Assembly (NCBI GenBank): GCA_029167225.1
Contig: JARFNK010000009.1
Coordinates: forward strand, 1 to 64,000
DNA length: 64,000 nucleotides
Reading direction: 5' to 3'
Source of the DNA: Sphingobium arseniciresistens
GTDB lineage: Bacteria; Pseudomonadota; Alphaproteobacteria; Sphingomonadales; Sphingomonadaceae
The notes under the pieces are model-generated. The model ran no database searches and had not been told where the DNA came from. It worked only from the letters and a program-made list of their open reading frames with translations. A program made the position numbers and the translations under genes. The stretch's first letter is position 1; each line of letters begins with the position of its first letter. Positions 9,501 to 26,285 of the stretch are shown one piece after another.

Positions 9501-10901
9501 TTACATGTGGATGGGCTTGCCCGTCACCGCCATCGCCGCTTCCTTCACCGCTTCATTGTGCGTCGGATGCGCGTGGCAGGTATAGGCGATGTCCTCGCTC
9601 GACGCGCCGAATTCCATCGCCTGCGCCGCCTGCGCGATCATCGTGCCGGCGGGACCGGCGACGATCCACACGCCCAGCACCTTGTCGGTGGCGGCGTCGG
9701 CGATGATCTTCACGAAACCGTCGGTGTCCTTGATCGCCTTGGCGCGGCTGTTCGCCATCATCGGGAACTTGCCGACCTTGACCTCGCCCTTTTCCTTCGC
9801 CGCTTCCTCGGTCAGGCCGACGCCGGCGATCTCGGGATGGGTGTAGACGACGGACGGGATCACATCATGGTTCACGATGCCGGTAAGGCCGGCGATATTC
9901 TCGGCCACGGCAACGCCCTCGTCCTCGGCCTTGTGCGCGAGCATCGGGCCGGGGATCACGTCGCCGATCGCCCAGACGCCTGCGACCTTCGTGCCGAACT
10001 CATGATCGGTCTCGATCTGGCCGCGATTGTTCAGCTCCAGGCCGATCTTGTCGAGGCCAAGGCCATCGGTGTTCGGCTTGCGGCCGATGGCGACCAGCAC
10101 CACGTCCGCCTCGATGCTTTCGGCAGCGCCGCCGGCGGCGGGCTCGACCGAGACGGTGGCCTTCTTGCCCTTTACCGCGACGCCCGTGACCTTGGTGGAG
10201 GTCTTGATGTCGAAGCCCTGCTTCTTGAACAGCTTGGCGGCTTCCTTGCGGACTTCGCCGTCCATGCCGGGCAGGATCTGGTCGAGATATTCGACGACCG
10301 TCACCTTCGCGCCAAGGCGGCGCCAGACCGAACCCAGCTCCAGGCCGATCACGCCGCCGCCGATGACGACCATGTGATCGGGCACCTTGGGCAGCGCGAG
10401 CGCACCGGTGGAATCGACCACGATGCCCTTGTCATTGTCGACCTCGACACCCGGCAGCGGGGTGACGGAGGAACCGGTGGCGATGACGATATTCTTCGCC
10501 GTGGTCTTCGTGCCGGCCACCTCGACGGTGTGCGCGTCGACGAAGCTGGCGAGGCCCTTCAGCCATGTCACCTTGTTCTTCTTGAACAGGAACTCGATGC
10601 CGCCGGTCAGTCCCTTCACCGCATCGTCCTTGTCGGCGAGCATCGTGGGCAGGTCCAGCTCGACCTTGCCCAGCTTCACGCCATGCTTGGCGAGCACGCC
10701 GGTCGATGCTTCCTCGAACAGGTGCGAGGCATTGAGCAGCGCCTTGGACGGGATGCAGCCCACATTGAGGCAGGTGCCGCCCAGCGTCTCGCGGCTTTCG
10801 GCGCAAGCGGTCTTCAGGCCGAGCTGCGCGGCCCGGATCGCCGCGACATAGCCGCCCGGCCCGGAACCGATCACAAGGACGTCGTAATCATAGTCAGCCA
10901 T
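9501..10901 (-). CDS. lpd: Dihydrolipoyl dehydrogenase (E3)
   Basis: This 466-residue FAD flavoprotein reoxidises the lipoyl groups of the 2-oxoglutarate dehydrogenase complex with NAD+. It shows the N-terminal FAD dinucleotide fold VLVIGSGPGGYVAAIRAAQL, the redox disulfide in GGTCLNVGCIPSKALL, an NAD fold at VVIGGGVIGLELGSV, and the C-terminal His-Glu pair in HAHPTHNEAVKEA. It is the last gene of the mdh-sucDAB-lpd series. It is separated from sucB by about 390 bases holding a GIY-YIG ORF with flanking repeats. Confidence 0.97.
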   Translation of the reverse strand: MADYDYDVLVIGSGPGGYVAAIRAAQLGLKTACAESRETLGGTCLNVGCIPSKALLNASHLFEEASTGVLAKHGVKLGKVELDLPTMLADKDDAVKGLTGGIEFLFKKNKVTWLKGLASFVDAHTVEVAGTKTTAKNIVIATGSSVTPLPGVEVDNDKGIVVDSTGALALPKVPDHMVVIGGGVIGLELGSVWRRLGAKVTVVEYLDQILPGMDGEVRKEAAKLFKKQGFDIKTSTKVTGVAVKGKKATVSVEPAAGGAAESIEADVVLVAIGRKPNTDGLGLDKIGLELNNRGQIETDHEFGTKVAGVWAIGDVIPGPMLAHKAEDEGVAVAENIAGLTGIVNHDVIPSVVYTHPEIAGVGLTEEAAKEKGEVKVGKFPMMANSRAKAIKDTDGFVKIIADAATDKVLGVWIVAGPAGTMIAQAAQAMEFGASSEDIAYTCHAHPTHNEAVKEAAMAVTGKPIHM

Positions 10902-10918: not shown

Positions 10919-10945
10919 GTGCTCCTGCGCACGCAGGAGCCCAGA
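10919..10945. repeat. REP-like palindrome, left arm flanking GIY-YIG locus 1
   Basis: GCTCCTGC-GCAC-GCAGGAGC (10921-10940) is a perfect palindrome with flanks. It matches in inverted orientation the copy at 11251-11284, with 24 of 27 positions identical. The mismatches sit in the loop and at the outer end. The GIY-YIG ORF lies exactly between the two. Confidence 0.8.
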
Positions 10946-10950
10946 GCGGC

Positions 10951-11214
10951 TCAGAAAAGGTCTTCGAACAGATCAGTCCACCGGGGATTGTCACGCTCGA
11001 TCAGATCGATCTTCCAGGCCCGTTTCCATTTCTTCATCTGCAACTCGCGATGCCGTGCCTGTTGCAGATCGTCATGATGTTCAAACCAAACCAGTCGCGT
11101 GCAGCCATGATCCCTTGTGAACCCCGCCACCAGACCATTGCGATGCTGATAGACCCGGGCCGGGAGATCGCTGGTTGCCCCAAGGTAGAGCGTGCCGTTG
11201 CGCCTGCTTGCCAT
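10951..11214 (-). CDS. GIY-YIG nuclease family protein, possibly missing its first strand
   Basis: This 87-residue single-domain GIY-YIG endonuclease belongs to the short UPF0213/YhbQ-like class. Visible are GTLYLGATSDL (the YIG half), RVYQHRNG (catalytic Arg region), a Glu in ARHRELQMKKW and the terminal ERDNPRW. Codons upstream of the ATG, 11215-11241, read in frame VTKAGHVYL, which supplies the missing GIY-half strand. That frame has no ATG, GTG or TTG back to the sucB stop. Either translation begins at a non-standard codon such as CTG at 11217, or the gene has lost its start. Inverted palindromes bracket it. It interrupts the sucB-lpd junction. Confidence 0.75.
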   Translation of the reverse strand: MASRRNGTLYLGATSDLPARVYQHRNGLVAGFTRDHGCTRLVWFEHHDDLQQARHRELQMKKWKRAWKIDLIERDNPRWTDLFEDLF

Positions 11215-11250
11215 CAGATAGACATGGCCGGCTTTCGTGACACGTCTCCA

Positions 11251-11284
11251 TCCTGGGCTCCTGCTTTCGCAGGAGCACGACGTC
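11251..11284. repeat. REP-like palindrome, right arm flanking GIY-YIG locus 1
   Basis: GCTCCTGC-TTTC-GCAGGAGC (11257-11276) has outer flanks TCCTGG and ACGACGTC. It is the inverted partner of 10919-10945. The repeat lies between the sucB stop and the GIY-YIG coding region. Confidence 0.8.
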
Positions 11285-11292
11285 TCCCGTGA

Positions 11293-12537
11293 TTACAGGT
11301 CGATCAGCAGGCGCGTGGGGTCCTCGATCGCGTTCTTCACCGCGACAAGGAACGTCACTGCCTCGCGGCCGTCAATAAGGCGATGGTCGTAGCTGAGCGC
11401 AAGATACATCATCGGGCGGACGACGACCTGGCCGTTGCGGACGACCGGACGGTCCTCGATGCGGTGCAGGCCGAGCACGCCGGACTGGGGCGGGTTGATG
11501 ATCGGGGTCGACATCAGCGAGCCGAAGACGCCGCCGTTGGAAATCGTGAAGGTGCCGCCCTTCATGTCTTCCATGGTCAGCTGGCCTTCCTTGGCCTTCT
11601 TGCCGAAGTTGCCGATGGTCTTCTCGATCTCGGCGACGCTCAGGCTTTCCGCGTTGCGGATGACCGGGACGACGAGGCCGTTGGGCGCGGACACCGCGAC
11701 CGAGATGTCGGCGAAATTGTTATAAACAATCTCGTCGCCCTCGATCTGGCCGTTGACGGCAGGCACGTCCTTGAGCGCCATGCAGACGGCCTTGGTGAAG
11801 AAGCCCATGAAGCCCAGGCGGACGCCATGCTTCTTCTCGAACAGATCCTTGTACTTCGCACGCGCGGCGATGACTTCGGTCATGTCCACATCGTTGAAGG
11901 TGGTCAGCAGCGCGGCGGTTTCCTGCGCGCTCTTCAGGCGCTTGGCGACGGTCTGGCGCAGGCGGGTCATCTTCACCCGTTCCTGCGTGCGGCCGGGGCC
12001 GGCAGGCGCGGCGGCGACAGCGGCAGGCGCAGCAGCGGCGGGCGCCGATGCGGTCGCGGTGCCGGCAGCGACGGCCGCCGTCACATCGTCCTTGGTCAGG
12101 CGGCCGTCCTTGCCGGTGCCCTTGATCTTGCTCGGGTCAAGGCCATGTTCCAGCACCAGGCGGCGCACGGCGGGCGACAGGGTCAGGTTGCCCTCGTCCT
12201 CCGACGCGGCAGGCGCAGAGGCAGCCGGAGCGGGCGCGGCCGCTTCCGCCTTTGCGGCAGGTGCGGCAGCCGGAGCGGCCGAGGGCGCTGCGGCAGCGCC
12301 GCCAGCCTCGATCACCGCGATGACGGCGCCGACATTGACGGTGTCGCCTTCCTTGACGAGTTGCTGGCCCATCACGCCGGCGACGGGCGAAGGCACGTCG
12401 ACGGCGACCTTGTCGGTCTCCAGGCTGCAAATGGGCTCATCGAGCGCGACCGCCTCGCCGGGCTTCTTCAGCCACTGGCCTACGGTTGCTTCGGTAACGG
12501 ATTCGCCCAGTACGGGTACTTTGACTTCGGTTGCCAT
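11293..12537 (-). CDS. sucB: Dihydrolipoyllysine succinyltransferase, E2 of 2-oxoglutarate dehydrogenase
   Basis: This 414-residue core subunit transfers succinyl groups to CoA. The order is a lipoyl domain (residues 1-75, with Lys43 in ETDKVAV as the lipoylation site), an Ala/Pro linker, a peripheral subunit-binding domain (about 118-152, [20 protein letters not shown]), a second Ala-rich linker, and a catalytic domain. The catalytic domain ends in [20 protein letters not shown] with the active-site His. It starts 9 bases after sucA, as expected for a co-translated pair. Confidence 0.96.
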
Positions 12538-26008: not shown

Positions 26009-26038
26009 CGTCATGCCAGCGAAGGCTGGCATCTCAGG
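26009..26038. repeat. REP-like palindrome, left arm at decayed GIY-YIG locus 2
   Basis: The core ATGCCAGC-GAAG-GCTGGCAT (26013-26032) is a palindrome with flanks CGTC and CTCAGG. The arm is an inverted match to 26256-26285, with 23 of 30 positions equal. Several differences are compensatory across the stem. Confidence 0.85.
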
Positions 26039-26040
26039 CG

Positions 26041-26252
26041 GCAGTACGCATCGTCCAGCATCGAAACGGTACAGGCTCTGCCTTTGCCGGAAATATGGTC
26101 TGCCCCGTCTCGTTCTGGCGGAACCGCATGACGATATCGCATTGGCCATCAGCCGGGAAAAAGCGCTCAAGGCATGGAAGCGCGAATGGAAAATCCGGTT
26201 CGTGGAGGAGAACAATCCCGACTGGCGCGATATTTCAGACGTCGTTCCCTAG
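26041..26252 (+). pseudogene. GIY-YIG nuclease remnant, 5'-truncated and frameshifted
   Basis: Two overlapping frames give one GIY-YIG protein body. RIVQHRNGTGSAFA is read in one frame. KYGLPRLVLAEPHDDIALAI and then SREKALKAWKREWKIRFVEE are read in the next. They join if one base is restored near 26091 in GCCGGAAATATGG. The segment aligns with residues 19-85 of the intact-looking copy at 10951-11214 (RVYQHRNG, RLVWFEHHDD, KKWKRAWK). The GIY-YIG catalytic strands and any start codon are missing. REP-like inverted palindromes sit immediately on both sides. Confidence 0.8.
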
Positions 26253-26255
26253 CTG

Positions 26256-26285
26256 CCCGAGACCCCAGCCTGCGCTGGGGCGACG
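26256..26285. repeat. REP-like palindrome, right arm at decayed GIY-YIG locus 2
   Basis: CCCCAGC (26263-26269) and GCTGGGG (26274-26280) form the stem, with outer CCCGAGA and CGACG. It is the inverted partner of 26009-26038 and begins 3 bases after the stop of the nuclease remnant. Confidence 0.85.

Follow-up and report, generated by a model that had tools for sequence, protein, structure and literature searches.

Small solitary GIY-YIG nucleases are probably the dedicated partners of CGTC REPs, whose hairpins they would nick and thereby move REP units. According to the naming survey (Di Nocera 2013, PMC3733652), CGTC-tagged REPs, including the dRS3 repeats of Neisseria, span five phyla, with most cases in Alphaproteobacteria, and apparently have no dedicated transposase. 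In our proposal, the GIY-YIG nuclease would stand to CGTC REPs as the RAYT tyrosine transposases stand to GTAG REPs. The observations behind it are inverted REPs with matched stems around the genes, stems that follow the nuclease, recurrence across the class of the source organism and in a Neisseria CGTC-1 array, multicopy units, gene-less derivatives with both ends, and empty sites. Mechanistically, the nuclease would recognize its cognate REP hairpin when the latter is extruded or single-stranded and nick at or close to it, and this nicking could move or copy the entire REP-gene-REP unit; gene-less REP dimers might be mobilized in trans by the same enzyme. These findings point to an unrecognized enzyme partner for a large hairpin family with no known way of spreading, and a concrete gene partner makes the question of the CGTC-REP transposase accessible to bench tests. 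They would also place GIY-YIG enzymes on the short list of nuclease folds from which bacterial mobile DNA is built and give meaning to genes that are annotated merely as 'GIY-YIG nuclease family protein'.

A GIY-YIG gene between inverted palindromes

The window, a stretch of 64,000 nucleotides of Sphingobium arseniciresistens DNA, contains an open reading frame called from an ATG (positions 10951 to 11214, minus strand; 87 aa) that matches the Pfam GIY-YIG domain with an E value of 9e-12 (profile search with PF01541, 45.5 bits against a cut-off of 22.6). It is the middle one of three genes on the same strand, with sucB upstream (11293 to 12537, minus strand) and lpd downstream (9501 to 10901, minus strand), both of which are open reading frames named in the initial reading rather than by an annotation tool. 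The initial annotation placed the frame at the sucB-lpd junction between inverted hairpin repeats, and this arrangement was borne out, the two arms being equal at 24 of 26 positions. The upstream palindrome occupies positions 11253 to 11278 (minus strand; hairpin 11257 to 11276), and its inverted copy downstream of the gene occupies positions 10919 to 10944 (plus strand; hairpin 10921 to 10940). Both arms are 26 nt long (92% complementary), form hairpins with an 8-bp stem and a 4-nt loop, and have a CCAG tail facing the gene.

A scan of the 6.6-Mb genome for the stem pattern CTCCTGC-N2-6-GCAGGAG gave 15 sites, of which 13 are not at this gene, compared with a single occurrence of the reversed control pattern. 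Chance palindromes are ruled out by these genome-wide stem counts and by bracketing far above control (see below). The survey (PMC3733652) describes CGTC-REP families with stems of 8 to 9 bp, loops of 4 to 5 nt, a CCA tail, and dimers, as is the case here (8 bp, 4 nt, and CCAG in the window copies), and defines them by a CGTC (TGTC, CCTC) tag adjoining the stem, together with A-T at stem positions one and two. What we propose to add to these families is a gene partner. The window hairpins are divergent from CGTC REPs in both tag and stem, because GTG-like letters precede a GC-first stem where the tag and the A-T stem start are expected, whereas the other copies in this genome and many relatives display a CGTC or TGTC tag and an AT or AC stem start.

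Six protein matches with E values of 1.4e-9 or better, including the window copy and one truncated copy, were identified in the genome. Different stems bearing CGTC tags, ATGCCAGC and ACCCCAGC, bracket three of the copies (L002-L004) and the truncated L005; in L004, one of the two stems contains a mismatch. L005 is a second GIY-YIG element within the window (positions 26009 to 26285, plus strand), flanked on both sides by CCAGC-type REPs, and its coding region is disrupted by an internal deletion.

Coding region and protein fold

The GIY-YIG gene of the initial annotation is real, but its reported extent is probably too short: the frame remains open past the called ATG up to an ACG at 11236-11238, the added stretch contains the GIY strand, and a Shine-Dalgarno-like GGAG (11246 to 11249, minus strand) lies 7 nt ahead of this ACG. 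The probable full coding region, with the ACG start and the GIY strand, spans positions 10951 to 11238 (minus strand) and encodes 95 aa. The same situation recurs among 32 sucB-lpd loci, 18 of which have no ATG, GTG, or TTG at codons -6 to -12; ACG is present at codon -8 in 15 of these and at codon -9 in two, and ATT in one, so that translation of 18 of the 32 copies apparently begins at a codon other than AUG, which is ACG in 17. A GGAG-like motif is located 5 to 9 nt ahead of codon -8 in 16 of the 18 loci without a standard start. Across the sucB-lpd loci L012-L070 and the window, the start ACG is nearly invariant and the adjoining Lys, Gly, Val, and Tyr codons vary synonymously. In an AlphaFold2 model built from the ACG (pLDDT 97.1), residues 4-10 form the first strand. 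Given the conserved ACG, the GGAG motif, and this modelled strand, the ATG as called probably lies too far downstream. The position of the probable ACG start directly behind the REP hairpin suggests low expression of the window copy.

GIY-YIG enzymes use two tyrosines, an arginine, a histidine, a glutamate, and an asparagine. Numbered from the ACG, residues Y7, Y18, G20, R28, H32, E65, and N84 are invariant in 33 sequences. The nearest fold is UPF0213 (E = 2e-4, the only value below 0.001), followed by Slx1 (0.012) and UvrC (0.16), and the nearest solved structures are the UPF0213 entries 1zg2 and 1ywl. The window protein thus resembles the UPF0213 proteins in size and nearest structures, whereas the REP association is a feature of the present group. 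With the GIY-YIG domains of Slx1 and UvrC, it shares the fold and the catalytic-type residues but is a solitary protein of 95 aa without partner domains. By analogy with Slx1, which processes branched DNA, we infer that hairpins or cruciforms would be fitting substrates for the nuclease. A defence or phage gene was also considered and rejected: PADLOC yielded no match, PHROGs a single weak match (E = 0.003), and an NCBIfam search with the window protein no match.

REP hairpins bracket related genes

The link between GIY-YIG gene and REP-like palindromes suggested for the window proved to be general, far above control, and wider than initially guessed (123/132, 58/80, and 17/29 loci in three samples). 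Among the best 80 of 207 relatives identified in a search of species genomes, 58 loci have hairpins that share a stem core on both sides of the gene, compared with 15 of 6,079 control positions from these loci. Broken down by site, such bracketing is seen in 29 of 31 loci at sucB-lpd and in 29 of 49 at other locations. Bracketed loci in this set of the best 80 include L079, L085, and L090, from records titled Chloroflexi and Omnitrophica. A class-wide sample consisted of the best locus from each of 29 genomes, out of 289 sampled evenly across the class of the source organism. Same-stem bracketing was found in 17 of these 29 loci (control, 0 of 683), with hairpins upstream of 21 and downstream of 24 genes (control, 83 and 66 of 683, respectively) and on at least one side of 28.

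The third sample comprised 132 de-duplicated loci, to which a tag and tail filter was applied that accepts hairpins as far as 260 nt from the gene on its upstream side and 220 nt on its downstream side. At least one oriented CGTC-REP-type hairpin accompanies the gene in 123 loci (control, 969 of 6,712), and 83 loci have such hairpins both upstream and downstream (control, 40 of 6,712); under this filter, which is lenient inasmuch as L152 and L158 of genome G183 pass without looking like REPs, an oriented hairpin was absent from nine loci. The tag of the outermost hairpin is directed outward in 87 of 103 upstream cases and equally in 87 of 103 downstream cases. Bracketing on two sides is not universal, being observed in 53 of 100 loci outside sucB-lpd. 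Other GIY-YIG copies with the same flanks, which the initial annotation had suggested seeking, do exist insofar as the flanks are of the same kind, with other stems.

REP stems follow the nuclease

In the 53 two-sided loci outside sucB-lpd, the mismatch between the left and right 7-nt stems is 0.30, compared with 2.84 in permuted pairs (minimum of 5,000 permutations, 2.19). Protein distance is correlated with stem distance (r = 0.33, n = 92, 0 of 2,000 permutations), with shared descent ignored in this comparison. Within a single genome, G183, divergent paralogues are accompanied by different stems; of the ten copies examined there, L157 and L159 have no filter-passing hairpin, and L152 and L158 have doubtful ones. 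Locus L154 of this genome and L162 of G287 have homologous flanks (84% and 76%) that enclose different GIY-YIG genes, with 46 of 84 residues equal, and different REP stems, which indicates turnover at a single site.

Among the 37 genomes that have three or more four-nt-loop REP sites, 29 encode a strong homologue (E ≤ 1e-20), as do 53 of the 252 others (p = 1.3e-11, calculated on genome counts with shared descent ignored). Five-nt-loop sites were counted with a somewhat looser pattern in 80 selected genomes: 40 were taken from the 53 genomes that encode a strong homologue but have fewer than three four-nt-loop sites, and the other 40 lack any match at E ≤ 1e-8. At least three five-nt-loop sites were present in 19 of the former 40 and two of the latter 40, again ignoring shared descent. 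A PF01541 search of ten REP-bearing genomes without a strong homologue recovered matches only in a frame of 649-806 aa, the size of UvrC, in eight, and matches in short frames in G141 and G231. REPs can therefore persist after loss of the gene or exist without it; examples are G337 (105 pattern sites), G235, G111, G165, and others, REP-bearing genomes in which a GIY-YIG match was found only in a UvrC-sized frame. At 13 other GIY-YIG loci of REP-bearing genomes (four short and nine long frames, up to 1.5 kb per side), no CGTC-type REPs were found, and thus the REPs mark this group rather than GIY-YIG genes generally. A filter-passing hairpin inside the long frame of L265 is not REP-like.

Other taxa and a second GIY-YIG group

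A homologue with 53% identity is present in two Neisseria gonorrhoeae records, in one of which, the record examined, it is located inside a CGTC-1 array of CGTCATTCCCGC-type hairpins (L255). The CGTC-1 repeats of Neisseria correspond to dRS3 according to the survey (PMC3733652). A copy on Sinorhizobium pSymB resides among such hairpins with the tag CCTC, and a Rhizobium plasmid copy likewise among CGTC-REP-type hairpins.

The divergent copy in the genome of the window (L006/L171) belongs to a second GIY-YIG group; of 80 genomes from the same order, 15 contain members of this group. Inverted repeats scoring at least 17 bracket 18 of the 24 loci of this group (control, 0 of 388), and a long bracketing repeat is absent from the other six. 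The repeats are mostly variants of CCGTTCG-N-CCTGAGCTTGTCGAAGG, with one of the 18 loci, L193, having the CGTC type. We tentatively entertain, as a possibility somewhat in doubt, a GIY-YIG-driven class of transposition that would include at least two groups of ~95-aa proteins, each recognizing its own palindromes, the palindrome classes being CGTC REPs and CCGTTCG...CTGAGC..GTCGAAGG repeats, and spreading both themselves and gene-less REP dimers, Neisseria dRS3 among them. If true, this would be bacterial transposition that relies on neither HUH nor DDE nor site-specific recombinase chemistry.

Probable mobility of the CCAGC-type units

The idea that the unit is a mobile element gains support from the CCAGC-type copies, for which units in multiple copies, derivatives lacking the gene, and sites free of the element were all found. 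Units of this type are present at many sites in congeners, with seven examined in G032. Genome G001 contains four full units and two gene-less derivatives of 136-138 bp that have both ends, and G035 has four matches at contig ends, hence at least two physical copies. By eye, the conserved sequence continues for ~60 nt past the left REP and 66-70 nt past the right REP and then ends, so that the REPs in these units are subterminal. The notion that mobile units always end exactly at their palindromes, hinted at by many BLAST ends at the tags, fails for this type. Palindromes are subterminal in IS200/IS605 as well. A multicopy unit with defined ends and empty sites, as in insertion sequences, was found for the CCAGC-type copies only, the ends being judged by eye.

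The genes flanking L003 are 15 to 1237 bp apart, with the element absent, in all nine relatives having both flanks (19 loci were examined, with the left flank missing in 10); some of these gaps contain other sequence, and thus only the shortest two, of 15 and 118 bp, qualify as compact empty sites. The left and right flanks of L005 are at different places among the relatives listed. In G032, L241 and L243 have a common left flank of at least 110 nt and different right flanks, a pattern that suggests recombination between copies or a duplicated flank.

The sucB-lpd junction

The first 70 codons of lpd have a match in all 61 genomes searched, the source genome included, and 30 loci from this search were used for a comparison of the junction. 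The GIY-YIG element occupies the junction in five of the 30, again including the source genome, and is absent from 25, one of which has no sucB in reach; junctions free of the element, which the initial annotation had proposed to look for in relatives, are thus present. Three element-free junctions are compact (17-26 bp), one measures 84 bp, and eight contain another hairpin pair. About 11 of the 30 are filled by a gene-less inverted dimer of the CCGTTCG...GTCGAAGG repeat, which is of the class found around genes of the second GIY-YIG group (congener loci L095, L097, L099-L101, L105, L116-L119, and L121, with L105 and L121 degenerate). Because the contents differ among the 30 loci, sucB-lpd is a variable, hot-spot-like junction. 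At L108, it contains an unrelated small gene, by eye apparently one for a secreted cysteine-containing protein.

In the larger locus set, the 32 sucB-lpd copies are mutual nearest relatives, and their distances follow those of lpd (r = 0.45, n = 31, 0 of 2,000 permutations), which rules out a fresh insertion. From these sequence comparisons, the window copy looks like an old resident of the junction, apparently inherited mostly vertically. The earlier suggestion that the unit split sucB-lpd by insertion is therefore in line with the 25 element-free junctions but does not hold in the sense of a recent event.

Alternative explanations and known systems

Homing into REP dimers would leave the spread of the REPs to another agent, with the nuclease cutting the spacer of a dimer and its gene being copied in via REP recombination. 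Free-standing GIY-YIG homing endonucleases are selfish stand-alone genes and are copied similarly, the gene studied here sits between both REPs of an apparent dimer, and gene-less units with identical outer ends occur. Nevertheless, we regard this scenario as unlikely: the units of one subgroup extend, by eye, 60-70 nt past the REPs at unrelated sites, and some element-free junctions are just 15-26 bp long and have no dimer, so that insertion need not use a resident dimer. Furthermore, although both kinds of gene are selfish and stand-alone, a length of 95 aa leaves no separate DNA-binding tail, and the REP brackets and intergenic sites also differ from what is seen with homing endonucleases.

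Distinctly improbable, in our view, is a housekeeping role in which nothing is mobilized and the enzyme serves to resolve or trim REP cruciforms or to control its own mRNA via the adjacent hairpin, with the cognate REPs kept nearby for autoregulation. Such a role would be compatible with the Slx1-like fold (E = 0.012), with the long residence of the sucB-lpd copy, and with the REP hairpin that, in the window as in many relatives at sucB-lpd, immediately precedes the ribosome site and probable ACG start, but multicopy units at different sites, empty sites, and the presence of REPs on both sides of the gene, not upstream alone, argue against it. That REPs and gene are passengers, moved by another enzyme or tolerated by chance in intergenic space, is highly implausible: some genomes have REPs and no stand-alone gene, and many REP sites are distant from the gene, but the same-locus controls are low, left and right stems are matched, none of the 13 other GIY-YIG loci has REPs, and, according to the survey (PMC3733652), CGTC REPs flank no transposase gene beyond a few fortuitous cases.

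A dedicated partnership of GIY-YIG nucleases and CGTC REPs would have its closest counterpart in the REP-RAYT systems (REPtrons and REPINs, with the IS200/IS605-derived TnpA-REP), in which a small gene is likewise enclosed by inverted cognate REPs and gene-less REP dimers occur elsewhere. The inverted cognate REPs of REPtrons are thus found here as well; however, the bracketed protein is a GIY-YIG nuclease associated with CGTC-type REPs, in place of an HUH tyrosine transposase with GTAG REPs. Titles and abstracts in the open-licence literature yielded no paper joining GIY-YIG genes with REPs, and reports elsewhere are possible; in passages of PMC10928387 and PMC7318869, 'RAYT' is an author's name only. 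In a paper on casposons (PMC4046053), a GIY-YIG gene is named as possible repair cargo.
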